A stretch of 64,000 nucleotides of DNA. It comes from Tribonema minus. Its lineage: Eukaryota > Sar > Xanthophyceae > Tribonematales > Tribonemataceae. This document shows positions 252 to 20,634 of the stretch, piece by piece. Made by a program: the position numbers and the translations under genes. How positions within the stretch are numbered: the stretch's first letter is position 1; every line of letters starts with the position of its first letter. The DNA lies in the NCBI GenBank assembly GCA_017506865.1, contig JAFCMP010000097.1, forward strand, positions 62,001 to 126,000, written 5' to 3'. The notes under the pieces are model-generated. The model was given only the letters and a program-made list of their open reading frames with translations, was not told the DNA's origin and searched no databases.

Positions 252-3200
252 TTACGTGGCTGACGCGGATGCGCAATCAAGAAGCAGATTGCCCCTCCAC
301 CACGTGCGTTCTTGCGGGTAACCATGACCTGGAGGTTAGCATTAGCAGCAACGACCGCACGTGCGCACCGCCTTGTTGGTATGTCGAACTACCACAATGA
401 CCCTGCTGGAAAACTCTGCTAAAGCACTGCATGCAGCGTACATACTTCCTTCCGTGGACAACTGCAGCAGGTGTTCAACACTTACAGACGGACTCCGTCT
501 TGAGCACTGCGAAGGCGCCCATGGCAAACAGGACAGTCGGCTTGAGCAGGATGCACCGCAGGTTGAAGGTGCTTGAGTAGATGGCCCCACGTGCCTTGGC
601 GAAGTAGTGCTGGTAGAAAGCGCGGGAGCGTCTGCAACAGAACAAATGCAGTGCCAGGACGACGACGGCACAAGGTCAGCAGCAGCTGCGCGCTGCGGAT
701 TGCAGAGGGTCGCAAACTTCAACATGAAAGCCTCAAGAGCAGCGGCTTGAGGGACCTGCTCATTTTGTGTGAACGCAAGGCTCTGCAGCACACTCCTACA
801 TGCTCAGTACTTTGCGTGCGCTGAGAGCGCACCTGTGGTTATGGTCACCTCGGTAGCAGGCATCAAGTAACCATGACTGGGAAGCATACACAGTGCACGA
901 GTGACAGTCGTCACTAACGCTGCACAGTATTGGCACACTGGAGATCCCCCACATGCCATCAGTGACTCCGTATGCTGAACCTGCAAACGCCAAAATAGAT
1001 TGCAATCACAAGACGTGCCAACATAGCCACATGACCAATACAGCATTCCGATTGCTGTCTGAAAACACCAGGTTTCACTGTACCTGTAGGTGAAGAATGT
1101 GATGAGGTTGGCCAGGAGACCAAAGGTGAAGGGGTACAGGTACGTATGGACTTGTATTTATAAAGGCCCAAGGGAGGCCGGGTTGCCTATGCAATCGAAA
1201 AGCTTGCGTCAACGCAGCAGCCTAGTCTGCGCTGTGCCCTAGGAGTTTGGATACCGGCGCCGCAACACAGCCCAGCATTCGCGCTCCACGTGTGTATGCC
1301 ATGACGCGCTCCGCCAACTCCCGCGCCAGCGATATGCTCAGCTCAATGTGGATCTGACGCTTAGCTAACCCGGCCTTGCGTAACACATCTGCCTTCCCCC
1401 CCCCTGAGCACAGTGCTGAGTGCATTGCCAACTCCTTAACAAAAAGGCTTGTCTGCTTGCCCAGCCGTCCGTACGACTCCTGCACGAATGGCACAAAAGC
1501 CCAAGATGACGTCAAGGTGCCGGTGTGGTGCTTGACCTTCGCGTCCTCCCCCACCCCAGCAGCATAGCCGTCCGTGTTCGAGGCATTTGTTTTGCCTGTC
1601 AGGTACGAGCTCGCTGTGGGTGCGCGCACACTTGTGTCTAGCACTATTCCCTTGTTACGGTATGCACTGCTAAAGTGCAGACACCCTGGGTCAATGACTG
1701 TGTCCGCCCGATACCCCGGTACCTTGAAGACGCTAGCGTCCTCATTGCGGACAATAGAGACATGGTGCTGTCTCAAGATGCGCTGTAGGCACCGCTTTTG
1801 GGCAGTGTGTGTCGCGTTGTGCCCCCGTATGTGCTGGCTGGGGCAGCTGATCGCATGCGTGGAGGTGGGGCTCACGTCACTGCACCGCCATGGGCACACC
1901 TCGCCCTGTATGCCCCACCCGTCTATAAAGATCGCAACCATAATCATCGTGGCTGCTGCCATACTGGACATGGGCGCCGCACCCGGGCGGTCATTGGCAG
2001 CGGGTGGCACGCTCATCCACGCCATTGCCCCGGACGCACGCTGGCTGCGCAGCTGCGCCAGGACCCGCGCGCTAGCCTGTTGGCGGCGGCGGCTGGTGTC
2101 ACGCAAGTCACCAATAAGTGTAGCCTGCGTCGGCTTGCCCACGGCACCAGCCGAGGCAGCCTCTAGGTCCTCCACCAGGCAGTCCTCGTATTGACGTCGA
2201 AGAACATTTGAAAGGCCGGCTTGTAGTCCGTGCGTGAAGTGACCGCGCCGGCGGCGGGGCACTACCTTTCTGCAGATCTCGTCAGCATAGGCCTCCCAGT
2301 CGTCGTCGTCGTCCTCCTGCCCGCCGCTGCAGCTGCTTTCTTCCGCGCTAGTTTGTGTTTTAGCGGGCGTGGAAGAGGCAGCCGCGGCAGCGGCTTGAGG
2401 GCCAGGTACGGTCGCCGCCGCAGCGGCCGCCTCGGCGCCAGGCACAATGCCGTGGGTGTGTGGGGCTGGCTCAGTGGTCCCCGTCTCCGTGACGGCAGTT
2501 GCGGCGTAGATCGCTTGCACCGCAGTGGGGAGCGTCGACGCTGCGGCCGTTGTATCCGCTGCCCACCGTAGCAACGATGCTGGGAGCTGCTCGGCCACAG
2601 CTGTGCGTGATTTTTCGCCGCCATCAGCTGTCAGCGCTCGCGTAGAGCGTCGCACGGCCTCGATGATTGGCGGCAGTCCCTGGTCCTCGCGTATTGCGCA
2701 TGAGTGCTGCGCGAACCAGGTGACTGCGCCGTGTTCGTCAGTGCCGAGCCTCAGGGCCCCTGCTGCCACAGTGGCATGAATTATTGCAGGCCGCAGTGTT
2801 GTGCATGCCTGGGCCGTGTATGCGGCTGGTGCCAGTAGCCCCAAAAGCGGCATGCCCAGACCGCCTCGTCGCTCCGGCAACCGTGACGCCCGCAGTGGCA
2901 CTGCGATGTCCGTGAGTTCTGGCGGGCCCAAGCGCGGCAATACCAGCACGCTGCCACTGCTGGCTACCTCATTGTCACCAGCAGTGCAGGCGGCCAGCAG
3001 GTGTGACTTCATGACTGCCGCGGTAGCGCAGCCGTGCAGGTGCAGCATGCGTTCAAGCGTCCATGCACAGAACCCGTCAAATGCGTGCAGCCATGTCTCA
3101 CTCAAAGCCGTGTCAACGACCCGAGCTAAGAAGCCCATGCGCTTTGTCAGTGACCTGCGCAGAATGAATTGTGCTGCCTGTAGGTGATGCCGCGCCATCC

Positions 3201-6200
3201 CAGCTAGCTGCCACGACAATCGCCATGTCCCTGCGTCAACAAGATGCTTGCTCATGGCAGCATGCACATAGGCTGGGTGCCCTACCGGTACCCCGACCGA
3301 CGTAAAGCCCTGACTGGATTCTGGCATGGTGGCGTCCACAAACGGTATGTCAAGGGCGCGCAGGCGTGCTCTGGCCGCTTCATCAAACACTGTGCCGCGC
3401 ATGGCAATGGCCAGCGACTTGTCTGGTCGAACGCGTAGGCCCCCTGCCGCAAGCCGACGGATCACCTCTGCCACCCCAGCGGCCGCTGCATCGTCGAAGT
3501 AGGCAGCTTGCAGCACGTTGAGGTCATCCAGGAAAGCGCAGTGCGGGGCTGGCGGTTCCGCTGTGCTGTGGCCGTAGGCCGGCATACTGCCGGGCGTCGC
3601 ACTCACTCCATCAGGGTAGAAGAGTAGGAATGCCGCTGCCACTGCAAAGTACAGCGGCCCTAGAGGGTCCCCTTGCTGGCACCCTAGGTGGGAGCAGATA
3701 ATGCGAGCTTCACCGTTCACCTCCACTCGCATCTCTGGGGCAGTGTCACCACAGTATACGGACTCAAAGTGCGGGAGCAGCTCCGGACAGAAGAGCATAA
3801 GTCCCCGCACAATGGCGGCGCGATCCACACTGTTAAATGCGTTCTCACAGTCCAGCTGGATTGTGGTGCCATACAGCTCGTGCCACACGCGCGCGCGCGC
3901 TGCCACATGCTCGACGCCAGACCGGTATCCTACGCCAAACTGCGACATGGAGGCCAGCAGCCCCGATATTTTGCCCTTGACACCCCGTGCCGCTGTGGAC
4001 CCGAGGAGTCTGCGCCAGACACTGGAGCAGGCGATCGGACGCCGCTTCTGTCCTATGCCTGAGAGGGCCGCGGCGCGGAGAAGCCGTTGCGATTGCTCCG
4101 GCAGCAGTTCGGGCTCAACAAGCAGCGTCGTGAACACCTTGGCCAGGTGATGGGCGAATGCCGGTTCCATCACATCCGATTCTGAATCACCAGCTAGTCC
4201 TGGCGAGGCACTGCCCACGGGGCGGGTGGCTGCTTTCACTGGTGCACCAGGCCCAGCGGCCATCAAGAGGTGTTCATAGCGTAGGCCGTCCAGCCCTCCT
4301 GCCTTCCCCGCCCCTGCTGCGGACAAGGTCGACAGTATGTCTGTCGCCTCCACCTCGAGGCGCCGTCCGGCTGCGCTGGCAGCATCCTCAGGCCTATCGC
4401 TGCGATCATGCGCCTGACCCGATTCGAAGACGGGACTGCCGCTGCCAGCGGGCCCGGCGGTCGTTGCCACCCCTGCGCCGTGCAAGCAGTGCCGCCGGGC
4501 GTCGCGTACCAGGCCGCGCACTTGCTCCATTGGCGTATCGACTACCCCGGGCCGGGTGCCAGTTTCAGGGTGCTTTGCTGCCAGCACCTGTGCCGTGACC
4601 TCGTCTGCTGGGGCGCATGCTTCACGCGCCTCTAGTCGTGCGGCAGCCAGGCCTACCCCCCGTCGCTTGCCTGAGAGGGCAGCGCATGCTGTTTGCTGCC
4701 TGGAGTCAGCCTCCGTCCAGTCGGCATCGAAGTTCGTTTGTGCCGACGCCGTAGCTGCGTTGTTTGGTTTGGGGGCCCGCAGCGCCGCTGCTGCTGACAG
4801 CGTCTTTCTCAGTAGCTCCGCAAAGTCGCCAGACAGCAACGCTGCCAGCCGGGCCGCAGGCGGCATACCGGTTCCCTCCGGTTGCCTACCAAAGGCCATT
4901 GCTGCTAGCAGGTGCAGCAGCCTGTAGCCGCGCTGCACTAGAGTCTGAGAAACCTGATGAGCAAACGCCCCGGCACCATGGTGGAGGCGCACCCGTGCCG
5001 CCTCACGTGCACTGTCTGTGGCGTCCGCCAGTAGTCGTGTGGCGTGCTCCACTAGCCGTGCCCACTGGGTGCACTGCAGCTGAGTGCGGAAGGGGTTGGC
5101 AGTCGTGGTGAACCGTAGCAGCAGTAGATCCGCCTCATTGGTCTGGTCAAGTGCGTGGACGACCGAGGGCGTCGAGAGGTCCCAAGCCAGGGATGCTCGT
5201 GACTGGGGCTTTGAGGGCCTGCCACTGGTGGTGGTGGTCGGGGGGGGCGGTGACGCGGCATCGTCCGGCGGGTCCAAGTCCATGTCCGCCCATCCCACGG
5301 CCGTCCCGTGGGGGGGGCTGCTGTCCTGCAGCCTTAGGCTGTTAGACTGAGTGCGGCTGCCGGCGCTGCCAGGCGGTGCTGCAGCAGCTGCCGTTCGGCG
5401 CCGGCGTTGCGCGCCGGTTGCCGTGGCCGCCGGGCGTTTCTTGCTGGACTTTGAGTTGGCAGCGCCACTAGCCGGCACCGCCGGTGGCTTTGGAGGTGTC
5501 GCTGCGGCAGCCCCCGCCGCCGCGGCCGCGCCGTCGCTACCCGCACCCCCGCCCTCGGACTGGCCCGGGGGTACTGCCGGGCGTGCGCGCGTGGGGGCGC
5601 TTCCATTCCGTCGACACGTGTGGCATGGCGAGGTCAGCGCGCATTGCCTCTGCCCCGCGCTGGCTGACATATGGACCAGACCGCAGGCACCTGTGCATGC
5701 ACTCAGCTTCCTTACCGCCCGTAGGAAGTCTTCTGCCGTGCAACCATACATGGTGCTCATCTCCTGCACACGCTTGGCATGGTGTGCCCCAGTGTTGCAG
5801 GTACTGCTGCCTGAAGGGGCACGGTCACCGGATGGGTCGTGATCAACCTGCTGCCGGATGCCCTTGGCGTATGCTGCCGCCAGATTTTGCTGACAGTGTG
5901 ATGTGCTCGCCTCAGGGTTCAGCATCGACCTCGTGCAGCTACCACCGTTGAAGTGGGCCACTACCGGTGCCATGCGGCTCGCAGCTGACAGTTTGCCTCG
6001 CTGTTTGCTGTCCTCTTTCTGACCAAGCTGCCAAAATGCCAGTGTGCATAAAGGACACCTCAGTGGCTCAGGCTGCTGTGGCAACTGCAGCGCAGTACGG
6101 GGCTGTGTCCGACTCGGAGCCGTGATGTGGGTGCTGTTAGCTTGAGTGGTCGCCGACGCTGTCATAGTGGTTGGCAAGGGCGGAGCTGCCGCAGGGGCGA

Positions 6201-9200
6201 CAAGCAGTTCAAAGTGTCCCACATTTGTATATAGCCCAGGCGGCGTCCACAGCACATCCAGATGGCAGTCAGGCTGAGCTGGAGTTGCCGGTGCGAATAC
6301 CGCTGGCAGCCCCATCAGTTGTGCCAGCACCAGCCCTGTTGATTTTTGCGTGCTGCCAGTGGCCTGAGGCTCGGCCTGCCACACCGTCACCGAGACCGCG
6401 TAGACCGCTGCAACAATGGCCCACACAGACAAACCGAGGGGCCGTCCCCACACGCCCTCTTCCTGTAGGCGTTGCAGCAGGAGCGTGTGCCCGCTGTCCG
6501 CGCTGTCCGTTTCATTTGTGCCGTACTCGATTGCGAGGCAGCGAGCGCGTGTCCCGTACGTGTCGAATTGTTCACGTGTACACGCAGGTTGGGCTGCTGC
6601 ATGCGCGGTCAGTTGACGCATCGATGACATGCTGGCCCCTTGTTTGCCCGCCCCCTGCGTGACGTATGCCACCATCCCGTCCAGCAGTGCCTCTCGCATG
6701 GCAATCACCAGTGCTGGGGCCGGCAGTCCGTGCTCAACTGCGACGCTGTCTATGCCGTGTAGAGCTGTATGAATCAGGCAGTTGCCGTTGCCCACGTTGC
6801 TCACGGGGCGAAGCTCCCCACCACGTGCTAGCGTCGCTGTGTTTTCCCCAAGCGCCTGTTTGTGGAGTGCCTGCAGGCCCGTGTGCCAAGTGGAAAAACC
6901 ATAGTTGGTGGCTTTTGCCAGCGCGTCTTGCTGCTCCTCCACGGTGACTGTATGGCACACGGTTGAGGGTATCCGGGTCGCCACCGTCACGGTGGTGACC
7001 TTCGCCGGCCCGGATATTGGTGCTGAGGGGGCAGAGGCACCGCCCCTCGGCGGTGTGGTGGCTGGTGCCAGGGGTGCACGAGAATTGTCGCACTGGGCCT
7101 GTCGCTCCTGCGTCCGCCGTCTGTGTTTACCTCTGCGTCGACTGCGCTTTCCACTGGCAACCATAGCCGTGACAGGTGCTGTCTCGGTCATTGTTGCGTG
7201 GGTGCTGTTATCACCAGCCTGCGTTACGTCTGACTCACCACGTTTCCCGGCTGGCTGGCGAGGCGACCTGGCAACGACCGGTTCCCTAAGGGAGAGTTGG
7301 TCAAACACCGTTGCCAGGTCATTACCTTCTTCTCGGAGGGAGAGCAAGCTGAACGTGACCGTCAGGTCATGCATCTGACTCACCAGCGGTGCGCAGGAAG
7401 TCCGGCCCAGCAGGGTCTGTGTTGCTGGCGCGTCGCTGGGCGCCGGCCGCATATGCAGTCGGCGTGACGTGCGGCAGGGTCCAAGCTTGGTACCCGTCGG
7501 CCAAGCGCAAAGCACCGTGACGCGTGCCCGATTGGGGGCAAGGGCCAGTGCACGTACCCTGCGCGCGAGTGCGCCAGCCGCCCCCAGCAGGCCTTGCCAG
7601 TGTGATCCCGTCGGGTCCCTGGGGCATTCGCTAGACTGAGCGCCCGCTGCGACAGCAGCTGCGGCACTGCCAGGTGTGCTGGGCACACGATCGTTGCTTG
7701 ACATCGTTGCGCCGCTATCGCTAGCACGACTTTCGCCAGGCAGCACACCCATTGTGCTGCTCCGGGTCAGTCTCGGCAGCGGCGCATCTGCCACACCGTC
7801 CAACGTAGATGCATGGGCTTGCCTGGGGTCTACCCCCAGGTGCTCGCATCCGAGGAATTTGCGTATGGGACCACATTTGCTAGCGGCGGCGAGCAGCGCG
7901 GCTGTTGGCTTCAGGCTATTCCCCCCACCAACAGCTGCACCACCCGCTGCCGCCGCGCATGTCGTTGGTCGGGTGTGTATGTCAGCAATGTGATCATGGC
8001 CTGATGCACGGTCACAGCCTGACAGTGTGCATGCTGTCGCGGCGACCGGGCCTGCGAGGCAGTCGGCGCAGCGCCACACGTCGCACTGGTCCAGGGCCCC
8101 TAGATCACCAGATGGTGTCGTGGCGCTTGCTGCTGTGCGTCTGATGAAGAGGTTGCCGCACCCGTCGCAGACCTGCTCTAGGCCGCCGTATATTGGTCGG
8201 TGGTCTAGGAAAAGCTGAACATGCAGTTCTGCAAATTGCTTCCCTTTCCCTGTGTGGCGCGTGCGCTGGTGTGCACATGCGTGTGCCGCTGGGCAATTCT
8301 TTCCCGGGGCCCGAGGATTTGCTCGCACTATGAACTTGTCGCACATGCGGCAGTCCAGCCCCGGGATATTGACCTTCCGGTTGGCAGCGGGTGTCTTGGC
8401 GGGCGCCAAAACTGTCATAGCGGTGATGCCGGATATTGGGTGCCCGTTGCGACTGTTACCGTCAGAGGTGACGCTGCCGCCTGACAGAGAGGCGCCGCTG
8501 CCAGCTGGCTGCAAAGACCGGGACGTGATTCGTCTCTGGTGACCCGCCGGCCCAGGTTCGCCAACTTCCATCGGTACAGGCATGGTCACGGTGACCGGCT
8601 TTGCCAGCGCACCGCCAGACTGTGGCTCTGGACGGGTGACGCTGCCAGTGCTTTGGGCGCTGGCGCGGCGCCGACCCCGCCGGGGTGCAGCCGCCCCACG
8701 TTCGCCGCCCGGTGCAGCAGCCGCTGCGGCCGCTGGTGCTGTTGTCACCATGTCTGCAGTACATGGGGTTTCCGCTGCGGTGACCTCCATCGGCTGAGGA
8801 CCGGGATGCCACTGGGGAGAGGCGCCGCTGCTAGCTGGCTGCGAAGGCCGCGACGTGATCCGTCTCTGGTGACCCGCTGGCCCACTGGTAGGTTCGCCAA
8901 CTTCCATCGGTACGGGCACGGTCGTGGTGACCGCCTTTGCCAGCGCACTCAGTTTGCCAGACGGCGACTCTGGGCGGTTGATGCTGCCAATGCTTCCGAG
9001 GCGTCCCAGGGGCGGCCCGGCGCTGGCGCCGCGACGCCGACCCCGCCGGGATGCAGCTGCCCCGCGTTGGCCATCTGATGCGGCAGCGCCTGCCGGCGGT
9101 TTTGGCACCATGTCTGCCGCACGTGGCGTTGCCGCCGCCGTTAAGTCGGAGGTAACCTTGCGACCGCATGCAGCGGCGGCTGTGACAGTCGTCCGTGGCT

Positions 9201-12200
9201 GTGCAACCACCGGGTTGGCCGGTGCGGGCCCCGCCGCTGGTGCGGCAGTGGCAGCCGTCACTAAAGGCGTTTTCCGCCGCGAACGTCGTTTTGGCATTGG
9301 CGTTGTCGCTACTGGTGAATCCGGCGGCAGTGTCGCCCGACGGCGTTTATTTGCCGCTGGTGGCGGTAGTACCACCAAGCTCAGTACAATCATCGCTGCT
9401 GGCGGCAGTGCCTCCCGTAAACTCGCCGCTTGAGACTCCGAGTCACTGGCAGGCTGATGCCGCGGGCGCTTCGTCTGTGAGCATCCCCTGTCACAGTGAT
9501 TAGCGGCACCTGGGCTAGACAGATGGCGGCGGCGCTTCTTGACGTGCGCGTGGCTGCCACTGCCCTGAGGCTCGTCCGAGTCGGCTGACGACAAGTGTAG
9601 TCTGCGCATGCTTCTGCACAGCTCTGCAACCTGACTGCACACTGGCACCTCTGGCATCGGCCGCGGTCTAGAGCTCTGGGCCATCAGCTGAGGTGGTGGC
9701 GGGCCGGGTATCGGTGGCGGGTCCGGTATCGGCGGCGGGCCCGGTATCGGCGGTGGGCCCGGTATCGGCGGCGGGCCCGGTATCGGCGGGGGGCCCGGTA
9801 TCGGCGGCGGGCCCGGGATCGGCGGCGGGCCCGGGATCGGCGGCGGGCCCGGGATTGGCGGCGGGCCCGGGATCGGTGGCGGCGGCGGTATCACTAGGCG
9901 TACCCAACGGCCAACACCATGGCGGCGTCTGCGGCGTGTGTCAGATTGGCGTGCAGCTTTGACCTGCCACCACCACAAGCCAGTATTCAGCCCGTGGTTG
10001 CGCTGTTCCCGTTTGCGTTTCAGAGGTGACCCCTCCCCACGTGAGGCAGGGCTGGTAAGCCAGTGGAGAGCCATAGCTTTGAAAGGCGACTTTGAGGCGC
10101 GAGAAAAAAAAAAAAAAAAAAAAAAGAGCCCAGGCTCGGTCTCGAATGCGCGGCTGCCAACCGCGAATACTCCCCTGCACAACTATACCACTTTCAGTTC
10201 AAGATCCCGTCCTGCTCTGGTGTATCTGTTGAGGTGCTTCTCCCGCCGTCGTGAAACGAGCGGTGGTGGAACGAGTCGGTGTGCTCAAGCTCTCTGCCTC
10301 TGACCAACACAAGGCAGCTGGGCTGAATGCAATGCTGTGCAATTCGTGTCCTTGCCGCTGCAGTGTCGTGGTCCTGTCGTGTCTGTGCGTGTGCTGAATG
10401 CAGTCAGTCTCTGCCAGGCGAGGTCCCTTGTGCGGCTGCAAATCAAGCTGGTCAGCAAGCGTTCAAACCTTAATCTGGTGAACTGCTATCTACTGCCCTG
10501 CGATCCAGTGTGCCCTAGGTTCCCCCTTCCCGATCCGTCGACGGCGATATCGTCTGATGTTTTGTTTTTTTTGTTTGTTTTTTTTTAGTTTGCCCTTCTT
10601 GTGCTTCGGCCGATGTCGCTGTGTGCGTAGGTAGCTTTAGCAATATCAATGCGAGGCTTACTTGCTTACACCGGCGACCCACGCTGCGTGTCTGGCCTTG
10701 TTCGCCTCAGGCCCGCGGTGGAGCGAAAATCCGCTCTCTAGTCCTCGGCTGTAGCCAGGCCGACAGGTTGAGCGTGCGGTGCTGCTGTGCCCTCAGTGTC
10801 CCCTGTGCATCCTCGCCTTCCGCGCCGCCGCTCCGCCAGCGGCTCCTCCTTCGCTGCCTCCTCCTGCCGCTCGCCCGAGCAGCAGGGCGCTAAGCACGGT
10901 ACTGGGTACAGGTACTTGCCGATGATGAGGTCGCCAAGGTCTGCAACGGTAGCGAGCAGCCGCACTTGCAATGTGAGCGCCAGCACACTTGAGCCAGCAC
11001 CGGCAGCTCCAGCAGCATTGCAGTAACTGTAAGCTCATGGCACAATGCGGTCGGTTCGCATGCTCATGAGTGCGGCAGCCGTGCTACATAAGCCTGGGGC
11101 AATCAAGTGTGTCTAGAGTGGTGACTTGAAGGCATGTCAAAAGCAAGAAAGCATACTGACGAAATTCACAGGAGCGGCGTTGCATCGCAGCGATCCCAGG
11201 CGTCTGTGACCAACTTGAAAGCATGCGTCTGCATGCAGGTGCTTGCAGTTTTGTACTATTGCAGGGTCAACTTGAGTGCATGAAGTCTGCCAATGCCACG
11301 CTGTTTGTGATGCAAATAAGCGATTGATCTCACCCCAGCGGTTCTGGCGCAGGTGCCACTCGACGTGTGTGGTGGGGAACTCCTCGTACACTGTGATGTC
11401 GGGCACTGCACAGCAGCAGACACACGGACAGACACGCGAGCTTAGTGGCAAGCAAAATACCAGTATCATGTCACCAGGCCTCAGGAGGTGCAGTGCCATC
11501 ACCAGCGATGTGATGAGCGGCAGCCGATGCGATGCAGTCACTACACCACTTGAAAGTGGGCATGGCGATGGCTGACATGCCATCAGCGCGGCTTGCTGAA
11601 CGCACGATACGGTCTGGTCGGGCATTGCATATGGAAGCAGATAACATTGTGATTGCATCAGCAAGTTCAGACATCTGGTTGGTTAGTGTGTCTGCACCAG
11701 CAAGGGGGACATGATCGTTGCCAGCTTCAGCCAACTGAGACGTTGCATGTGCCACCTTCATATACTTCTATACTTCGAAGTATATACTTCTACTTGTACT
11801 TCAGAGCACCGTCTGCTGGCACACTGGATATATCACAACTGAGGTCTGCAGAGCATGTGCCACCTTCATATACTTCTATACTTCGAAGTATATACTTCTA
11901 CTTGTACTTCAGAGCACCGTCTGCTGGCACACTGGATATATCACAACTGAGGTCTGCAGAACTTAAAAGCAAGTGATGCTCAGCCTGTGTTAGGATCATT
12001 CATTAAAGTAGCATACAGTAGACCAAAGCAGTGCGCACTGCATCGCTCACCGAGCATGGTCTTCATGACGGACGACTCGATGATGTCGTGCGAGATGAGG
12101 TCACGCGGGATGTTGCGCTCCTCCTGCGTGCGCCCGGTCGCGGGGTCCCACCCGAGCAGGGTGATGTTGTACGCGGACCTGCACACGGACGACGCAATCG

Positions 12201-15200
12201 CAGCATGCGAGGTAAAGTAGTGCATTCAGTGTCACAATCGCAGAATGAGATGGTGAATTCAGTGACACCACTAGTGGACTCTAACCAATTTAGGAGCACT
12301 GCCACGGCCTGCCAGAGTGCTGTAAGGTTGCAGCAGTCAGTGCGCTGCTCAGGCGTGGAGGCTTTGACATTGCGCTAAGCAAGTTCTGCTGGTCCTAGTA
12401 CCCAGATTGCTAGGCAAGTAGCTATTTAGTAACATCAAGAGAAAAAAGTGCTACCTTGGGTGCGGCCCTGGCGGCTGCTGAGGGGCTGCTCAGCAGCAGC
12501 AGCAGCTGGGTCAAGCCACATCGAGCAAAGCACTCTCGAAGGTGGATGACTACTGCCAGTGAATCAAATTTTCTAAGATTCCATCCATGCTTCCTCCCCC
12601 CCCCTCATACCTTGCGGGCAGCACGTGGTTGAGTGCAACGCAACTTGCCATGCTTAGCGGTGGTAATATCAAGCCCACCATGGCATGTGGAAGAGATGTT
12701 CTGGGTGCACATCCACAAATGTTTCATTCAGTTTGGTTACCTGCGAATGATGCCTTTGCCGTAGAAGGCTGCACACGGGATGTACACGCGCTTCAGCTCA
12801 GCCAGCTCATTGCCGAAAACCTGCGCGCAGTCCAGTATGTAGCGCCGTCACGCACACAGTTGGTGGTCGAAGTGGAACATCGCAGTGAGGAGATTTGACA
12901 GTGTACAAGTTATTGCAGCAACTCGGCAGTGCGACTTTGGCAACACAAAATTGTACTTCTAGACCTTTGTGCAAGGTGTCACGCACTGTGGAGCTTTGGC
13001 AAGTTGAACTCTGATTGTCTCAGAGCCTGATTGTGATCTCACATTGACGCCTGTTCTGGATGTTGCAGCCATGGCACTGGCACTGACAGTAGGGGCTTTG
13101 CTTACCAACAGCCTACACATAGCCTACAGCTGCACCAAATGTGGCAGCACTCACCAATGGTGTGTTGATGAAAAGCACAGCTCAGTCACAGCAGTCATGC
13201 TTCACGCTATTGCCCTCCGACTCGGAGCCCAAGTCTGCAGCACATCCTCGTACTACGCACCTGGAACTTGGCACCAAGGGAGGTGTAGTATGACTCTCCG
13301 CCGTGGATGGCGCGCCTGAAGTGCTTGGGAAATGGGGTCACTGCAGGTTGAAGGATCTGCAGGTCTGGGTAGCGCAGGAAGTACTCGTTCGCCGTCATGA
13401 AGAAGTTGGTGCTCAGCCTGCCAGCACACGAGGACAAAATGAAATAATCCAGCAGGAAGAGGGTGAAAGGCTGCCATCTGATGCGGTCATTGGACCTGCT
13501 GTGAGCAGTGAGCACTCACTCTCAGAGGTGCAGCTGCTACTTCATCAGGCTCGGCAGCACGTTGTGCAATGTTGTTGTTCGAATACGAGGTGTTGATCCA
13601 TCATGGAACAAGGTCAGAGTCCCCATGCCATCACTCTTTCATGACACGGACATTGAAGGGATGGGGTATGGCATTGCCTGATACGGGCACTACACGTGAT
13701 GTTTTGCCAGGGTGCCAGGCATCATGGTAATCATCAGTGTTCTTTGATGTACTGACAGCAATATGATTTGGGTGTTGCAACGCATGCGTGCAGCACTGCA
13801 ACCGGTCATGTCATTGACAACCAGCAGGCCGCATGAGGGCCGCAGTGATGAGAAAGTGCTAGGGGTGCCGCCCTTGACTGCCAGTGCTAGCGCACAGGGG
13901 CAAACACTCAGACTGATTAGCACAAGCATATGTTGACAAGTTGAATGTTGAGACTTTTGTGACTCAAGTTGAATGTTGAGACTTTTGTGACTGATTAGCA
14001 TGAGCATATGTTGACAGTATTGAGACTTTTGTGCCCACGATTGATGTAGGAATGCATGCAATGACCAGCCTGAGCGGCACACGAGCTCTATCGCCCAATG
14101 GCAACCGCAGCCCCATCATGATTTCCTGCCTGACAGACTATTTCATGGTGCCCAGCAGTGATGGCTGCGATAACCGTTGGCATCAACTTGAAGTGGAAGC
14201 GTGAAAGCAATACTTCTAGAGTGGCAGCTTATTAATGACTCACATGTTGTCGCGGTCCATGATCGCCAGGAACTCGTAGTCGCTGCCGCAGAAGTGGTCG
14301 ATGTCACTGGTGGGGTCAAAGCATAGACCAGATGGATGCCTGGACTTGATATCCTGCAAATGTGGTAACACGAGCATGCCAGTCAGGCCACAATGACACC
14401 CGGACTGTGGTGAGGAGGCGTGCCTGTCATGCCTGCGACCACCGTACATTGTTGAGCTGTCTGCACAATGTGAACGTGTGGCCGTGCCCGCGGGGCCGAG
14501 CGTGACCATTGGCATGTGGCACCTGCAGAGTTCATTATACTGTTGCATAGCTGCCTGGCAACTCATGCAAATCGTCTAGTTATCACTTGAACATCAAGGC
14601 TAGCCTCAAGGCTGGTCCACCCGGAACCTGAGCACAACTTGCAGAGCATTGACAGGGTGTGCAGTTACTGGCACGCTCACTTGAAGTTTGGGGCAGCACA
14701 AGCAGCAGTGATTGTAGCACTGGCCAGGTCTACCCACCCCAGGGAAGCATACTGCTGCGGCTGTGAGGAAACTTGTGGTGTGGTATTGCTAAGCTGTACT
14801 CAGCACTCATGTCGCTTTTCCAGCAATCACATCACACAAAAAAAATGCTAAAAGGCCTCACCACTGTGACAGTCAATGCGACTAGATAATGATTATCTTA
14901 CCACACAGTGCACAAGCGTCATGCAGGGTGTTGTGTGAACATGGTGTCAACTTCAAACCCACCTTGTAAAGCATAGGCTCCTTGTAACCGTTGAGCAGCA
15001 TGATGAAGTCGAGGTACTGTTGCACGGCAAGAGCCACAAGGGCCGGCAGAGGGAAGCGTCAGGCTGAGTGTTATCGCTAGTACGGCATTGGATGAATGAC
15101 ATATAACACATATATCGTGATTGTGTGTATGCATTCAGCTTGCCATCACGTGCAATCATTGCGGACGTAGTACTGCAGTAACTCAGTTGACCATTGGCCC

Positions 15201-18200
15201 ACCAGGTAGCCAAACAGACGCTGGCGGCATGAGACTTCCGCTGAGGCTCAGCAACGCAGTTGGTGCAGTCAATCCACCGAGATGCTCTACAGCAGCTGCG
15301 GCACCCGCATCGCATCCGGTAATTCTGAGCATCACTCTGAGAGGCAGCCGCATTCTCAAAAACTGTGCCCACTGCACTAGAAGTGGCAACTGGTATTATC
15401 TGGGACTGCCATCATGCGCAAGTAATGTGACCATTTGACTTTTGCGCTACTCTAAGCACAGCTGCTGGTCGGAATCTAGTCAACAACATGCAATGCAGCA
15501 CGCAACACGAGGCTTGCCCATTGCCAACTTAAATGATAGCCATCCAATGTGTCAGAAGTCGGCAGGGCTGCCGCTGTGGCAGACGTCCAGGACGAGCTAT
15601 AAGTTCTAAGCTTACCTGGCCATACTTGAAGAGGATGGACCGCATCCGGCGAACATAGTACACTTTGCCCCCCTCTTCGGCATTGAGTATGTTCCAGTCG
15701 GCCACAGCTTTGGCCTCGATGGCCGCCAGTTGCTCGTCTGCCGTTCCACTGAATTGAGCAAAAACAGCATCAGCATATTTGTTTACTGAGTAAAGCAGAA
15801 GTATTCATAAGCATTGCCACTGGTAGGGGCGACGGTCATGAGCCATATATGTGTGCATCTACTGGCAGGCGGTGTCGACACATGTGCCATGCGCATGTCA
15901 TAGTGCCTGTGTTCAGGCTCTTGTTTGAGACGAGAGGCTTCAACTGATGCTGTAATTTGATGCTGGGTCCTGTTTTCAATGTTCAGATTCTCTTGGAAAA
16001 AAATTGCCATTCAAACTTTGTGTTGGACACTGCGTCAGGTCATCGCAAGTATACAGCTTGTAAGGGAAGCCACGGCATTGGGAAGCGGCTGCCAAAATGG
16101 CAATGACTCTCTCAGTATTGAGACTCACCTGAGAATGCAGAAGGTGGCGTTGCTGTAGGTTTGGTTCAACCGCCATGAAGCCTGCAGGATCATCAATGTT
16201 TCCTGGTAGTGTTGCAGCAGGCACATCACAGCACCAGCGGCAGCAGAGTTCAACTTCAAGTTAGTATGGCGCAGATCGATGACACATAGTCAATCAGTTG
16301 TCAGTCAATTTCAAATTGGTAGTAGTACTGAAGATGTGGCCCAGGGCAGGTTCTGAATCATTCTCAGAGTGCATATACCAATGGCATCATGAGGGCACAT
16401 GCAGCAACCGCTGGACTAGGCATGCCATTCAAGTTGTTACGGCAGTCACTGTGCGTCAGCCTGCCAGACTCGCGATGTGAACGAGCGGTAGAACCGTTTG
16501 CAGGCCCTGGGGTGTCACTCAGTGCAGCTATGACAGTTGCGGTGCCGTCGACTCCTGGACCACGCACGGATCCAGGCTGAGCATCAACTATTGATAGCAG
16601 CAACTTGTTGAGCGGTTACTGTTGCACACAGCTGCTCCTAGTACAGTTTAGTAGTGCGGCAGCAATGCCTGGCGCAAGCAATGATCACGATGATGATTGC
16701 AGACACCGCAAATGTCATTCCCGGTCACCGTCTCTGCGGTACTAGCAGCAGGCCTCAGTCTCAGGCTGGCACAGTGACACGCAGCAATACATACAGTCAC
16801 AGAACGAGTACAGCTGCTGCACTGCTGCAGCATCACCACGCTTCCGTGAGCATCAAGCGATGTTATTAGCTGCTGTAGCTTCAGGTTGAAGCAGTCTTAC
16901 TTCTTACTGTCAATATTGATTGCCATATGCAAGTGGGGCAGGTGATGCATTGGCGGCTGACATTTAATGGCAGTACAGACGCATGATGGTCACCACAAAG
17001 GTACACGGAGATTGCAGTTGTACAATCAGTGACATTGAATGCATTAATCACCTGTACTTGCACGGGGTTGTTGCTTTTCAGGCAGTAGATCACCAGAAAC
17101 TTGTTCATCTTGGAAGGCGTCAGCGGGCAGGTGAGGCGGCCCTGTCACAATGACATGATTTGCAAAAGCAACATGAACTTCGTTAGACATCATGATGATA
17201 TTGGCAGCCGAGTGATTCAACAGCACGCCAGCAGACGTCACAATCAATGACATGATGCCGCAGCACATTATGTCTTCAAGCTGTTCGGTGCTGTAATTGT
17301 TATAATCACAGTGACTGTGGCAGTACAACAAGTCTTCAAGGTACAGCTGCTATGAAAATCGGCCTTTACCAGCGTTTCAGTTGACCGTATTTGTACACGA
17401 TGACCGTCGCGGTGACAGCATTATACGTGACAATCGTTATGATTTGTTGCAAAGCAAGTCACCCAGGTGGGGCACTGCAGCTATAAAACCAGGACGCATA
17501 AGTGAAACGGCAAGAAAGTGTACAGTGCATGCAACGCCTTGGACACCTCCAAACCCGGACTTCGGAAAGCAACTTTGAAATCATGAAATTCCAACAGGTT
17601 TCTGCCATGGATGCTGCACAGTGGTCACCTCAAGGGGCAATGGTTTGGGAAGCTGAATCTGAACCAGAACTTCCAGTGGAGGACAAATTGCAGACAAATG
17701 CTCATGCTTGTTCAATATGAAAAACGAATCAAAAATATCGTTGAGCTGTATACTCGCTCTGAAATGCAAAGGCTACTACGTCCGAGCCGCTACGGCCGCC
17801 TCAGCTATTCAAGACTGATAGATGACCTGTTCTATTGCCGGTGCTTGCTTGCAATCTCAGTGACAACGCTCGCAGCTGTGTAAAGAGTTCGGCCCAACCC
17901 AAATTCAAAGAATTTATTCTCGAGGAGCTCGCGGAGCGTGCAAAAGCAGTAATGCAAGAACTAAGTCGTATCGCGAGTTCAAGGTAAGTTATCAGCTGTG
18001 GACCAGTACAGTTTCACTCATTACTTCACACACCAGTTTACGCGTACGAGTTCAGCGTCATTCCGCGGCCATGGGTATGAGTTCAAACGTGCATCATAAT
18101 ATCGTACTCATACGCGTGCCACGGGTGTACGCGCCATCTCTGACACAAATCATGATTACTGATTGGGGAATGATATTAGCTATGTTATCATCTAAATTAA

Positions 18201-20634
18201 AAGTGACAATCATAAATATATACTGCCATCGTCAAAGGTCAGCCGTATTGAGTGATTGACATGAGATTGTTGACAATTTGTGCTGATGCTGTAGCAGCTG
18301 CAGCAGCTGGACCAGGTACAGCTTTGCACGACAATGAGCATGACATCGTCTAGTTGTTGTAGTAGTACTTGGTGCAATGACACTAACTATAGTACTGCGT
18401 TATACTGCAGTATTGTGAATCTTTGACTCGCCGCGCCATCTGGAGCAAAACCACTCAAACCTGTCAGTGAAGGCCAAGAAAACCTTGGAAGGCTACAATA
18501 ACTATGATGTCAAGGCGATGACCACCGCAAGCCTCTTAAGTTAGGATGTTGACTTTCAAGTCTCGGGTTATCACTTGACAGCTGGCACAATGACTGTTTG
18601 GCCCTGCGGCCAGCGCCTGTTGCTGCACCTGGTGCAGCTTCCGCATGGCAATACATATTTGCAGTAAATTAATGAACTGCGTATTATTAATACGCACCTT
18701 GGACATTGCATGCCGTCTTGAACTGAACAGGGCCAAAAAAATGCATATGAAGTCGGAGGCAATGTCGGCCACAAGGATGTTGGTCAGCAGGGTCACCAGG
18801 ATCATCATCACCTGCAAACAGTGACAAGCGCAACAGCAATGCAAGAACAGCGAATCGTTAATTCACATTCCCACCTCAGGCTGTTAGTAATACTTTCTAA
18901 AGAGTCCGCTAAGACCAGTTGAAGTATTTGGATCTGCAACTGTTGCTGCCACCGTTCATGTTACAGTCACTGGAATAGTTAGGCTGTGAGGTGCACCGCA
19001 GTGTGTTGAATAACACTCATTGACTCATCGAATGCTGAACGCAATGTCATGCAGATCATGATGAATGTTTGTCATACTGGATTCTGTTGTCACTGTTACG
19101 GTGTTCACTCCACAAAAGTCGTACCTGTCAACAGACTGAGTTTTGTGGATTAAAATGCTGTGCCAACCGTGTGACACAGCACTCAGTTTGCCGATGCATA
19201 ACATTTTTGAAATTCAATCCCAAGTGGCACCAGGCTCAGAGTCAGCTACAGTAACTGCTTCCAGAAGTGATCTACTGTGACTGCAACTGCAATTGTTACA
19301 TCATGCTGCAATTAAACCTCATCACTCGGTTGGACATGCATCCATTATGATACAGTAACTGCCAGACTAACACATTGAGTTTCGCAGTGTCCGCTCAGAC
19401 TGAATGAGCAACAATGTGTTGAGACAAGCTCAACATGGGGGCATTTAAGATCCTGCCCACTTTTATAAACATGCATCGAATTTTCTGCTACATTGTTTTT
19501 TCTAGGCATGACTCAGCGTGTTTCATCCATACACTTGGTTACTATTAGTAATTACGATAATCATTGCCAAAGAAAATGAAGGTCTATCATACCTGTTGTA
19601 TCTTAGATGGTTTACAACTCACTGACAGGCAGTGGCACCGGGTCTTGCTTTGCTACTGATCAGGTCACCCTGTTTGCCGAAGTAATCAAAATTTCAACTT
19701 GGGACCCATCGACTGTCACTAACGGTCACAAACCGTTACCGTAACAATTAACATAAAGTTTACTGAGTTATTGCACATGGTGTGGCCACCTGCGCATGGT
19801 GCTGCACTATCAGCACTACTAGCTCGTGCCAGTCGCTATGGCCATCACCGTGACAGTTACAGTGACTGTGAGCAGGTAATTGACAAATTGAAGGATCCGC
19901 TCCGCTCATCCGCGACCCTGAAACTCAAAAAGCAACCGAGCACTTATGCTATAGTAAAGTCTCCAGGGCAGAACAGGTGTTGAAGTTGGGTAATGGCATG
20001 CTGTAGCCCTATGTCAGGGGCATCTGCTGACTACTCACTTGTTGAAGTTGATGTTGTTCCTGATGTGATATTGTACTTCAACGGTGATATTCATACTTCA
20101 ACTTCATGCCAACTTCAACTGTCATATCACTGCTCAGCGTGCAATAGCACGGCTCCACCCGTCTCAACTTCAACAACCAACAGCTCTTCTGGTGCGTCTA
20201 AGTGAGGCCAAGAATCTACCATTGTCAAACTTCAACAGTTTGAGTGTCTTGACTGACTTCACTATAGCATAAGTGCTCGGTTGCTTTTTGGGTTTCAGGG
20301 TCGCGGATGAGCAGAGCGACTCGTTTGAGTGTGACCAACAAAGTCTGACTGAGAGTGCGTGCCAAAATTGCGCCTCAAGGTGCAGCCACAAGACTGTGTG
20401 TACTTCTATTGTTCAAAAACCTTGGCACCAGTTGCACTTGACTTGATGTTTACTGGGCAATTACTGAGCTACGCACCACCAATTGTGCCACGCACTCACC
20501 AGCCTGCTGATCGGAGGGACCTCATAGTAGGGCGCCTGGAAGTGGAGCATGACGGCGCTGAATAACACCAGCACATTGATGAGGTAGGTATACCACCAGA
20601 CCACGCTGTACGTGGCGGTGACGCACCGCGCCAT
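252..20634 (-). CDS. GT2-family membrane glycosyltransferase (MdoH/NdvB-like), 14 exons, interrupted by a LINE
   Basis: Exons, 5' to 3' on the minus strand: 20634-20500, 18811-18698, 17141-17058, 16202-16129, 15748-15616, 15016-14963, 14353-14244, 13417-13261, 12820-12741, 12178-12051, 11405-11334, 10964-10904 joined to 1131-1084 across the LINE, 631-486, 328-252. Every junction keeps phase, giving about 490 aa. Visible family marks: hydrophobic N-terminal segments in exons 1-2; DxD-type motif MDRDN (exon 7); the stretch LRYPDLQILQPAV (exon 8); GKGIIRR (exon 9); LISHDIIE (exon 10), matching the LSHD..E region of MdoH; RQNRW (exon 11), an R/QxxRW-type motif; hydrophobic segments in exons 12-13. 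Inferred role: processive transfer of sugar from a nucleotide-sugar to a glucan at a membrane; the polysaccharide is unknown. The ATG in exon 1 is the first plausible start, but upstream exons cannot be excluded. The last exon, ending in TAA, is the least certain. The gene is broken here by the insertion in exon 12. Confidence 0.75.
1132..1143. repeat. Target-site duplication, LINE 3' side
   Basis: Twelve bases, GGGTACAGGTAC, identical to 10904-10915. They lie exactly where the exon 12 coding sequence of the GT2 gene breaks off (minus strand: coding for K-Y-L-Y-P). Confidence 0.93.
1222..10182 (-). CDS. LINE polyprotein: Pro-rich N-terminus, Cys/His fingers, OTU-like protease, RT, CCHC, RLE
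   Basis: The open frame is 2986 codons from 10182 to a TAG at 1222-1224. The first 36 codons cross a T22 run, so the ATG at 10072-10074 (product starting MALHWLTSPA) is a more natural start. Order of parts by genomic position: Pro-Ile-Pro-Gly minisatellite about 9690-9895; Arg/Ala/Pro-rich disordered stretch; Cys/His clusters about 8355-7975 (CRMCDKF, VCDGCG, CDVWRCADC); OTU-like protease about 6815-6195; a second low-complexity stretch; RT about 4330-3300 with IQLDCENAFNSVDR, QGDPLGP and FLDD; CCHC knuckle about 1880-1800; restriction-like endonuclease about 1725-1440 with VLDTSVRAP and FVPFVQESYG. No apurinic-endonuclease motifs were seen. Product: one protein for target cleavage and target-primed reverse transcription, with a protease domain whose target is unknown. 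Confidence 0.93.
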   Translation of the reverse strand: MCRGVFAVGSRAFETEPGLFFFFFFFSRASKSPFKAMALHWLTSPASRGEGSPLKRKREQRNHGLNTGLWWWQVKAARQSDTRRRRRHGVGRWVRLVIPPPPPIPGPPPIPGPPPIPGPPPIPGPPPIPGPPPIPGPPPIPGPPPIPGPPPIPDPPPIPGPPPPQLMAQSSRPRPMPEVPVCSQVAELCRSMRRLHLSSADSDEPQGSGSHAHVKKRRRHLSSPGAANHCDRGCSQTKRPRHQPASDSESQAASLREALPPAAMIVLSLVVLPPPAANKRRRATLPPDSPVATTPMPKRRSRRKTPLVTAATAAPAAGPAPANPVVAQPRTTVTAAAACGRKVTSDLTAAATPRAADMVPKPPAGAAASDGQRGAAASRRGRRRGASAGPPLGRLGSIGSINRPESPSGKLSALAKAVTTTVPVPMEVGEPTSGPAGHQRRITSRPSQPASSGASPQWHPGPQPMEVTAAETPCTADMVTTAPAAAAAAAPGGERGAAAPRRGRRRASAQSTGSVTRPEPQSGGALAKPVTVTMPVPMEVGEPGPAGHQRRITSRSLQPAGSGASLSGGSVTSDGNSRNGHPISGITAMTVLAPAKTPAANRKVNIPGLDCRMCDKFIVRANPRAPGKNCPAAHACAHQRTRHTGKGKQFAELHVQLFLDHRPIYGGLEQVCDGCGNLFIRRTAASATTPSGDLGALDQCDVWRCADCLAGPVAATACTLSGCDRASGHDHIADIHTRPTTCAAAAGGAAVGGGNSLKPTAALLAAASKCGPIRKFLGCEHLGVDPRQAHASTLDGVADAPLPRLTRSSTMGVLPGESRASDSGATMSSNDRVPSTPGSAAAAVAAGAQSSECPRDPTGSHWQGLLGAAGALARRVRALALAPNRARVTVLCAWPTGTKLGPCRTSRRLHMRPAPSDAPATQTLLGRTSCAPLVSQMHDLTVTFSLLSLREEGNDLATVFDQLSLREPVVARSPRQPAGKRGESDVTQAGDNSTHATMTETAPVTAMVASGKRSRRRGKHRRRTQERQAQCDNSRAPLAPATTPPRGGASAPSAPISGPAKVTTVTVATRIPSTVCHTVTVEEQQDALAKATNYGFSTWHTGLQALHKQALGENTATLARGGELRPVSNVGNGNCLIHTALHGIDSVAVEHGLPAPALVIAMREALLDGMVAYVTQGAGKQGASMSSMRQLTAHAAAQPACTREQFDTYGTRARCLAIEYGTNETDSADSGHTLLLQRLQEEGVWGRPLGLSVWAIVAAVYAVSVTVWQAEPQATGSTQKSTGLVLAQLMGLPAVFAPATPAQPDCHLDVLWTPPGLYTNVGHFELLVAPAAAPPLPTTMTASATTQANSTHITAPSRTQPRTALQLPQQPEPLRCPLCTLAFWQLGQKEDSKQRGKLSAASRMAPVVAHFNGGSCTRSMLNPEASTSHCQQNLAAAYAKGIRQQVDHDPSGDRAPSGSSTCNTGAHHAKRVQEMSTMYGCTAEDFLRAVRKLSACTGACGLVHMSASAGQRQCALTSPCHTCRRNGSAPTRARPAVPPGQSEGGGAGSDGAAAAAGAAAATPPKPPAVPASGAANSKSSKKRPAATATGAQRRRRTAAAAAPPGSAGSRTQSNSLRLQDSSPPHGTAVGWADMDLDPPDDAASPPPPTTTTSGRPSKPQSRASLAWDLSTPSVVHALDQTNEADLLLLRFTTTANPFRTQLQCTQWARLVEHATRLLADATDSAREAARVRLHHGAGAFAHQVSQTLVQRGYRLLHLLAAMAFGRQPEGTGMPPAARLAALLSGDFAELLRKTLSAAAALRAPKPNNAATASAQTNFDADWTEADSRQQTACAALSGKRRGVGLAAARLEAREACAPADEVTAQVLAAKHPETGTRPGVVDTPMEQVRGLVRDARRHCLHGAGVATTAGPAGSGSPVFESGQAHDRSDRPEDAASAAGRRLEVEATDILSTLSAAGAGKAGGLDGLRYEHLLMAAGPGAPVKAATRPVGSASPGLAGDSESDVMEPAFAHHLAKVFTTLLVEPELLPEQSQRLLRAAALSGIGQKRRPIACSSVWRRLLGSTAARGVKGKISGLLASMSQFGVGYRSGVEHVAARARVWHELYGTTIQLDCENAFNSVDRAAIVRGLMLFCPELLPHFESVYCGDTAPEMRVEVNGEARIICSHLGCQQGDPLGPLYFAVAAAFLLFYPDGVSATPGSMPAYGHSTAEPPAPHCAFLDDLNVLQAAYFDDAAAAGVAEVIRRLAAGGLRVRPDKSLAIAMRGTVFDEAARARLRALDIPFVDATMPESSQGFTSVGVPVGHPAYVHAAMSKHLVDAGTWRLSWQLAGMARHHLQAAQFILRRSLTKRMGFLARVVDTALSETWLHAFDGFCAWTLERMLHLHGCATAAVMKSHLLAACTAGDNEVASSGSVLVLPRLGPPELTDIAVPLRASRLPERRGGLGMPLLGLLAPAAYTAQACTTLRPAIIHATVAAGALRLGTDEHGAVTWFAQHSCAIREDQGLPPIIEAVRRSTRALTADGGEKSRTAVAEQLPASLLRWAADTTAAASTLPTAVQAIYAATAVTETGTTEPAPHTHGIVPGAEAAAAAATVPGPQAAAAAASSTPAKTQTSAEESSCSGGQEDDDDDWEAYADEICRKVVPRRRRGHFTHGLQAGLSNVLRRQYEDCLVEDLEAASAGAVGKPTQATLIGDLRDTSRRRQQASARVLAQLRSQRASGAMAWMSVPPAANDRPGAAPMSSMAAATMIMVAIFIDGWGIQGEVCPWRCSDVSPTSTHAISCPSQHIRGHNATHTAQKRCLQRILRQHHVSIVRNEDASVFKVPGYRADTVIDPGCLHFSSAYRNKGIVLDTSVRAPTASSYLTGKTNASNTDGYAAGVGEDAKVKHHTGTLTSSWAFVPFVQESYGRLGKQTSLFVKELAMHSALCSGGGKADVLRKAGLAKRQIHIELSISLARELAERVMAYTRGARMLGCVAAPVSKLLGHSAD
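1440..1880 (-). other. CCHC knuckle and restriction-like endonuclease domain of the LINE
   Basis: A Cys-x3-Cys...His-x4-Cys arrangement (CPWRC, then HAISC, then RGH) is followed by GYRADTVIDPG, VLDTSVRAP (Asp codon 1636-1638), a Lys-containing segment, and FVPFVQESYGRLG. This order, knuckle then PD-(D/E)xK-type nuclease at the C-terminus, is that of RLE-type LINEs, which nick the target before reverse transcription. Exact catalytic assignments are inferred from motif order. Confidence 0.8.
3300..4330 (-). other. Reverse transcriptase domain within the LINE ORF
   Basis: Conserved RT blocks are in order: GLDGLRYEHLL; GQKRRPIACSSVWRRLLG; motif A QLDCENAFNSVDR (Asp codon 3850-3852); motif B GCQQGDPLGPLYF; motif C FLDDL (Asp codons 3523-3528); then GLRVRPDKSLA. 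Motif C reads F-L-D-D rather than the usual F-A-D-D of LINEs. Catalytic aspartates are all present, so the enzyme looks functional. Confidence 0.95.
6195..6815 (-). other. OTU-like cysteine protease domain within the LINE ORF
   Basis: The motif NVGNGNCLIHTALHG has the Cys codon at 6778-6780 and matches the OTU signature DGNCLFRA. The His-containing end motif NVGHFELL has its His codon at 6214-6216. The spacing of about 190 residues fits an OTU fold. The Asp that normally precedes Gly-Asn-Cys is Asn here, so the active site may be altered or completed by a different residue. OTU enzymes remove ubiquitin in cells; in retroelements the role is not established. Confidence 0.75.
9690..9895 (-). 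repeat. 18-bp coding minisatellite (Pro-Gly-Pro-Pro-Pro-Ile repeats)
   Basis: About eleven tandem 18-bp units rich in GGC/GGG on the plus strand encode P-G-P-P-P-I repeats in the LINE protein. Most units differ at only one or two silent positions. One unit reads D instead of G. The stretch would be an extended, polyproline-type linker. Its position in the gag-like N-terminal third suggests structural or protein-binding use. Confidence 0.9.
10126..10200 (-). other. tRNA-like segment followed by a T22 run, in the LINE 5' region
   Basis: On the minus strand a D-arm/A-box-like GTGGTATAGTTGTGCAGG precedes a perfect 5-bp stem CGCGG/CCGCG around a 7-nt loop TTGGCAG, then a B-box-like CATTCGAGACC. 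The T-arm does not fold as in a real tRNA and the variable region seems missing. It is followed directly by 22 T (10125-10104), which would act as a Pol III terminator. It may be a degenerate tRNA or tRNA-derived SINE head captured in the LINE. Not called as a tRNA gene. Confidence 0.35.
10904..10915. repeat. Target-site duplication, LINE 5' side
   Basis: Second exact copy of GGGTACAGGTAC. With one copy kept, the host exon is 109 nt and joins its neighbours in phase. Confidence 0.93.
11745..11960. repeat. Exact 108-bp tandem duplication with a central palindrome
   Basis: Positions 11745-11852 and 11853-11960 are copies of one another, apparently without differences. Each contains the 16-bp palindrome TATACTTCGAAGTATA. 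The pair lies in the GT2 intron between exons 10 and 11. Near-identity points to a recent duplication. Confidence 0.92.
13915..14035. repeat. Short interleaved direct repeats in a GT2 intron
   Basis: A unit of about 28 bp with core AAGTTGAATGTTGAGACTTT occurs twice in tandem, then recurs in part. It is flanked by two copies of a GATTAGCA..GCATATGTTGACA segment. Located in the intron between exons 7 and 8. No coding signal. Confidence 0.75.
19899..20317. mobile_element. Candidate MITE: 63-bp terminal inverted repeats
   Basis: Left arm 19899-19961 and right arm 20255-20317 are inverted copies of about 63 bp with only a few mismatches (inner core TCATCCGCGACCCTGAAAC). About 290 bp lies between them, itself holding smaller self-complementary TTGAAGTTG / CAACTTCAA words. 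No ORF. It sits in GT2 intron 1. No clear target-site duplication was found, so a non-mobile hairpin is also possible. Confidence 0.65.

Follow-up and report, generated by a model that had tools for sequence, protein, structure and literature searches.

The stretch of DNA analysed here (the window) comprises 64,000 nucleotides of the genome of Tribonema minus, corresponding to bases 62001-126000 of contig C97 (JAFCMP010000097.1) in an assembly of 158.18 Mb and 554 contigs, and the whole analysis was made on assembly sequence. It contains a glycosyltransferase gene, one coding exon of which is interrupted by a complete long interspersed nuclear element (LINE), as had been proposed in the initial annotation. 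The interrupted exon, the element, and the adjoining parts of the host gene are arranged as follows:

486-631, minus strand: host exon 13, beyond which the gene goes on (splice model)
1084-1131, minus strand: 3′ part of the interrupted host exon 12 (splice model)
1132-1143, no strand assigned: target-site duplication GGGTACAGGTAC, copy at the 3′ end of the element (exact repeat; ends in GTAC)
1144-10903, minus strand: complete LINE, with its 5′ end on the right and its 3′ end on the left (genome matches of the 3′ 25-mer; 5′ probe)
10904-10915, no strand assigned: target-site duplication GGGTACAGGTAC, copy at the 5′ end of the element (exact repeat)
10904-10964, minus strand: 5′ part of the interrupted host exon 12 (splice model)
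11334-20634, minus strand: host glycosyltransferase exons 11 to 1, with the chosen start ATG at 20634 (splice model; PF13632, E 3.7e-7)

The splice model of the host gene consists of 13 exons placed by hand, with a start ATG chosen by the author, and stops at exon 13, although the gene extends further. Every internal border is AG/GT, and no stop interrupts the frame over the 13 exons. Excision of 1132-10903 yields a 109-nt exon 12 (10964-10904 joined to 1131-1084), which has AG/GT borders and lies in frame between exons 11 and 13. The joined product of 460 amino acids matches the Pfam family Glyco_trans_2_3 (PF13632) over the cut-off. With the insert in place, the host frame passes ...KYLYP, gains 54 residues, and stops after residue 450, of which 396 are native. 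The sequence thus predicts a host glycosyltransferase whose native part ends at residue 396, in line with the loss or truncation first suggested; such a protein would lack the end of the Pfam match, which reaches residue 411, and everything after it. It might be supposed that the host gene was already dead before the insertion, which would then have had no consequence, as the gene is known here by the sequence of exons 1-13 alone; however, the in-frame joining of these exons, with regular borders and without a stop, argues against this, and such a history appears unlikely. Elsewhere in the host gene, one intron carries an exact 108-bp tandem duplication with an AT-rich palindrome (window 11745-11960). 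Neither tRNA genes (ARAGORN) nor Rfam matches at gathering score were found in the window.

The repeat GGGTACAGGTAC is exactly 12 bp long at both ends of the element, the length originally given, but the duplication is best stated as 11-12 bp because base 10904 is ambiguous, most other copies reading ...CACGGTACTG at this end. When the left and right flanks of different copies (20 copies) were randomly paired, a match of at least 8 arose in 2.3% of pairings, a chance level that is inflated because one of the flanks is clipped where its contig ends and because one site was included twice, from two contigs. No empty allele of the insertion was found when the assembly was searched with both flanks. 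The left flank (700 bases) gave a single full match, the window itself, in addition to one 77-base match at 82%, and for the right flank (801 bases) the only full matches were the window and one each on C382 and C166 (100%), the others being two short partial ones on C517. A chimeric assembly, in which a 9.7-kb repeat with many near-identical copies bridges unrelated flanks, could be suspected from the fact that at least contigs C97 and C195 end within element copies and that the right flank also occurs on C382 with a different left flank. However, the duplication is exact and the exon continues in frame across the join, and C382 is accounted for as a separate daughter locus that continues the end of the same contig (see below), so a chimera is regarded as highly improbable. 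The structure very probably arose when a young, high-copy LINE recently inserted, by target priming, into exon 12 of a gene for a family-2 glycosyltransferase. As an event, the insertion is of an ordinary kind; the interest lies in the target preference of the element and in its daughter copy.

The element carries a single open reading frame (ORF), intact as had been reported, in which the following regions were distinguished:

1222-10074, minus strand: single ORF of 2950 codons from the ATG, plus stop (17 of the 21 copies, the window copy counted, have at least 2944 open codons)
1228-1926, minus strand: CCHC-like knuckle, then presumed restriction-like endonuclease (RLE; R-x-D ... L-D; motif reading and conservation with the relative on contig C192)
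2833-4335, minus strand: reverse transcriptase (RT) region (LDCENAF, QQGDPLGP, FLDD; Pfam RVT_1, E 1.4e-7; RT blocks 43% and 51% identical to the C192 family)
5923-6885, minus strand: possible OTU-like cysteine protease region (GNGNCL ... GHFELL; motif only, profile and PDB searches negative)
10104-10125, plus strand: A22 run, read as T22 on the element strand, a short distance 5′ of the ATG (length range 21-30 in the 21 copies)

From stop to stop, this frame is open for 2986 codons; the ATG stands at 10074 and the stop codon at 1222-1224, which gives the 2950 codons. RVT_1 was matched over the Pfam cut-off when the RT piece was searched and slightly under it when the whole frame was used (E 2.4e-6, 27.8 bits vs. 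a cut-off of 29.6); the whole 2986-residue frame gave nothing besides RVT_1 at E up to 1. Searches of the RT against PDB sequences returned no match, or one chance match at E 0.25, and no relatives of the element were confirmed in viral contigs. Within the genome, the C192 family, which is broken into several frames, shows the above identities in two RT blocks and 43% identity in the C-terminal domain. The C192 relative is probably 5′-truncated, since no match to the first 1800 residues of the element ORF was found in the 4.7 kb upstream of it.

The C-terminal region is presumed to comprise a CCHC knuckle and an RLE. The knuckle spacing read from the element is CX3CX8HX3C, and the R-x-D and L-D motifs are kept between the element and the C192 relative, whereas the knuckle spacing is not, the relative having three extra residues before the knuckle His. 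Upstream of the RT, a Cys motif (at 6792) precedes a His motif, and the two resemble those of OTU proteases. This region of 321 amino acids gave no Pfam match at E up to 10 and no match to PDB sequences, and its fold was predicted with a pLDDT (predicted local distance difference test) of 37; an OTU domain, unconfirmed by profile, PDB sequence search, or fold, stays a motif-level guess. The ORF also includes an 18-bp tandem repeat (window 9695-9892) encoding a PPPIPG array, beside which lie diverged duplicates at 8487-8775 and 8817-9135. Another RT family with QQGDPLGP was observed at C2:701200-705000 (L055), with an RT identity to the window LINE of ~30%; the degenerate pattern had 207 genome matches and, among the matches listed, nearly all were one sequence.

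With regard to family size, the 3′ terminal 25-mer has 1024 exact matches in the 158-Mb genome and 1288 with up to 1 mismatch, vs. 0 for the reversed control. A 5′-end probe yielded 140 first-look candidates, and the 40 that were scored are listed at 99-100%. Twenty of these copies were fetched (n = 21 with the window copy), including L021, which is cut to 6968 element bases by a contig end, and L018, which has a gap of ~100 bp. Their identity to the window copy is 99.7-100%, and this closeness, together with the exact duplication, bears out the earlier view that the insertion is recent. Two copies (L009 and L015) show zero differences from the window copy over 9747 bases, and the length of the A-run accounts for much of the variation among copies. 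The frame is broken in L010, L018, L020, and L021. L013 and L024 (contigs C419 and C62) have their near flanks in common and probably represent a single site that occurs on both contigs; some short contigs thus seem to duplicate others, so that the copy counts may be a little too high. In addition, L021 and L022, on different contigs, have ~19 extra bases in common beyond the element 5′ end and then diverge, which could reflect a short inherited 5′ extension.

In a sample of 23 3′ ends, the element breaks off inside the fetched sequence in 11, these being 5′-truncated copies that share the 3′ end; in 8 of the 11 (among L033-L052) it does so at 85-98 nt from the element 3′ end, by a recount over a range that was picked after the data had been seen, the original bin of 74-97 having contained 7. 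Across the genome, 1288 matches were counted for 0-25 nt but 954 for 117-141 nt, and this drop and the truncation cluster point to a stop near the border between the 3′-untranslated region (UTR) and the ORF. The predicted 3′-UTR fold is no more stable than shuffled sequences (z 0.57). By its RT, its 5′-truncated copies sharing a 3′ end, and its variable target-site duplications, the element is a LINE.

The sites at which these copies lie have a common feature. GTAC stands immediately before 829 of the 1024 exact 3′ ends, compared with a background of 200 in 53000 positions (0.38%) in the rest of the window. In 46 distinct flanks, positions -4 to -1 are occupied by G in 45, T in 41, A in 46, and C in 46, with T at -5 in 28, and the last four bases read GTAC in 40, GCAC in 4, GAAC in 1, and TTAC in 1. 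The element has a strong preference for GTAC at its 3′ junction. For the duplications, 20 copies were compared (L021 being without its 3′ end) and L010, whose flank is clipped by a contig end, was dropped, which left 19 usable copies. Duplications of 8-13 bp occur in 11 of these, or 10 of 18 distinct sites, and they end in GTAC or GCAC by design, as the test was anchored at the 3′ junction. Two further arrangements were observed: L033 comprises two opposite-strand copies 108 bases apart on C12, and L035 two copies tail to tail around one GTAC on C26. A special insertion on both strands of one GTAC was considered and dropped, with one exact tail-to-tail site genome-wide, a number near chance by a rough estimate.

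A mechanism for such insertions can be proposed in outline. The element's own C-terminal restriction-like nuclease would nick the target directly after GTAC, and the freed GTAC-3′OH would prime cDNA synthesis, possibly while base-paired to a terminal GUAC in the element RNA; such pairing is possible because GTAC is self-complementary. A cut of the other strand ~10-13 nt away would then give rise to the target-site duplication.

The architecture of RLE-type LINEs resembles that of the window element (PMC5678591, PMC3636483, PMC4640811). Members of this class (R2, R4/Dong, NeSL, HERO, CRE, and Utopia) are like it in possessing a single ORF, in which, by motif reading, a CCHC-like knuckle and a putative PD-(D/E)XK-like region come after the RT, and in having a target preference. 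However, they target rDNA (ribosomal DNA), spliced-leader, U2, or microsatellite DNA, whereas the window element targets a dispersed 4-bp palindrome; in addition, its ORF has ~2950 codons, and the last spacing of its knuckle differs from the rule CX2-3CX7-8HX4C given in PMC5678591. NeSL and nematode Utopia elements encode a Ulp1-like protease, according to PMC4640811, which the putative cysteine-protease-like region upstream of the RT would parallel, but the candidate motif of the window element is OTU-like rather than Ulp1-like, and its target is neither the spliced leader nor U2. An assignment to NeSL was rejected, with no protease family found by Pfam and a dispersed GTAC as the target. Dualen/RandI of Chlamydomonas, which has both apurinic-type and restriction-like endonucleases, would have the presumed RLE in common with the window element; this assignment was also rejected, as neither an apurinic-type endonuclease nor RNase H was found in the window ORF by Pfam at E up to 1. 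Green algae carry Zepp-like L1 and Dualen LINEs (PMC8226300). Among the papers listed on RLE LINEs and green algae, none named a GTAC-targeting or OTU-bearing LINE. OTU domains have been described in Ginger transposons and Helitrons (PMC2836005), and OTU is not among the accessory domains in the available portion of PMC6338049. Among the papers listed in literature searches, neither a GTAC-targeting LINE (GTAC brought up Tol2 only) nor an OTU-bearing LINE was named, although novelty is weakly tested in both respects, subscription papers lying mostly outside the search.

One copy elsewhere in the genome is accompanied by DNA of the host gene, corresponding to the following part of the window:

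10904-14918, minus strand: 4015 bp of the host gene also present upstream of the daughter element copy (identical flank on contigs C382 and C166)

In each case, the sequence follows the window from the element via 10904 to exactly 14918, and the 4015-bp flank has zero mismatches; the match on C166, which was read from base 6000 onward, includes 2 gap positions somewhere in 9403-13205. This tract comprises part of intron 6, exons 7-11 with their introns, and the start of exon 12. Past 14918, C382 and C166 enter a common other sequence that was found only on those two contigs. The left flank of C382 corresponds to C97:273763-274561, and an element copy (L067) runs off the end of C97. Because of the shared flanks, element, and 4015-bp tract, the end of C97, C382, and C166 are read as one locus, ~210 kb from the window copy on the same contig, with the order left flank, element, 4015 bp of host gene, and new flank, C382 being the only contig to include all four parts. 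Two observations speak against a single locus: the terminal 922 bases of C97 align to the element without a mismatch, yet with 11 gap positions, and C382 and C166 are 98.7% identical over 1.95 kb past the junction, yet 100% in the first 800 bases. Both were taken as presumable contig-end error. Over 9747 of 9747 bases, A22 included, the element on C382 is the same as the window copy, and its 3′ junction is canonical (gtgatGTAC joined to GTATGG); no duplication was seen at the 5′ junction. The element on C382 and C166 is likely a daughter of the window copy.

Human L1 elements are capable of 5′ transduction, whereby the upstream flank is moved to a new site along with the element. The daughter copy is similar in that it carries the upstream flank with the element, but the carried piece includes five exons with introns, the element lies in the sense direction within the host gene, and an origin from RNA is putative. 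A 5′ transduction of this kind, in which RNA begun in or upstream of host intron 6 read through the element and was reverse transcribed, unspliced, into a new GTAC site ~210 kb off, has about an even chance of being correct. It is consistent with the full-length identity of the two elements down to the A-run, the same end base on C382 and C166, the canonical 3′ junction, and the common orientation of element and host gene. On the other hand, the introns are kept, the 5′ junction is without duplication, and L015, located elsewhere, is equally identical over 9747 bases, so that element identity alone is no proof of descent. The retained introns, the missing duplication, and the presence of both copies on one contig speak for a DNA-level event, in which an element that already lay toward the distal end of C97 underwent recombination with the window element or was copied from it, taking the 4015-bp flank along. 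This second possibility, which requires an earlier insertion followed by another event and has to accommodate full-length identity including the variable A-run, is rated a serious one, somewhat short of an even chance. Between 5′ transduction and DNA-level copying, the balance is near even.

Taken together, we tentatively propose, at clearly less than even probability, that the element represents an RLE-type LINE lineage with the GTAC palindrome as its target, currently in a genome-wide burst, in which sense insertions in genes let host transcription carry unspliced multi-exon host DNA to new sites. Several points weigh against the target-primed insertion with nicking after GTAC that is described above. 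Of the 1024 exact 3′ ends, 195 do not follow GTAC, and 8 of the 19 usable copies are without a clear duplication, so that some sites must have undergone target deletion or recombination or been affected by contig errors. The C-terminal region has no Pfam endonuclease match, and the single-sequence fold of the endonuclease region reached a pLDDT of only 36. In addition, the contigs noted above that end inside element copies make assembly errors possible.

The finding owes its moderate interest to the GTAC preference, the burst size, and the daughter copy, and these three are new here, as the initial annotation was without them. The glycosyltransferase would be a concrete gene knocked out by the current burst, as predicted from its sequence. 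A LINE with a tetranucleotide target, more than 1000 3′ ends of near-identical copies, and a parent-daughter pair would allow direct measurement of target choice, cDNA stopping, and host-DNA capture. If the proposal is true, it would provide a 5′ route to exon shuffling, shown by a mother and a daughter copy in one genome.

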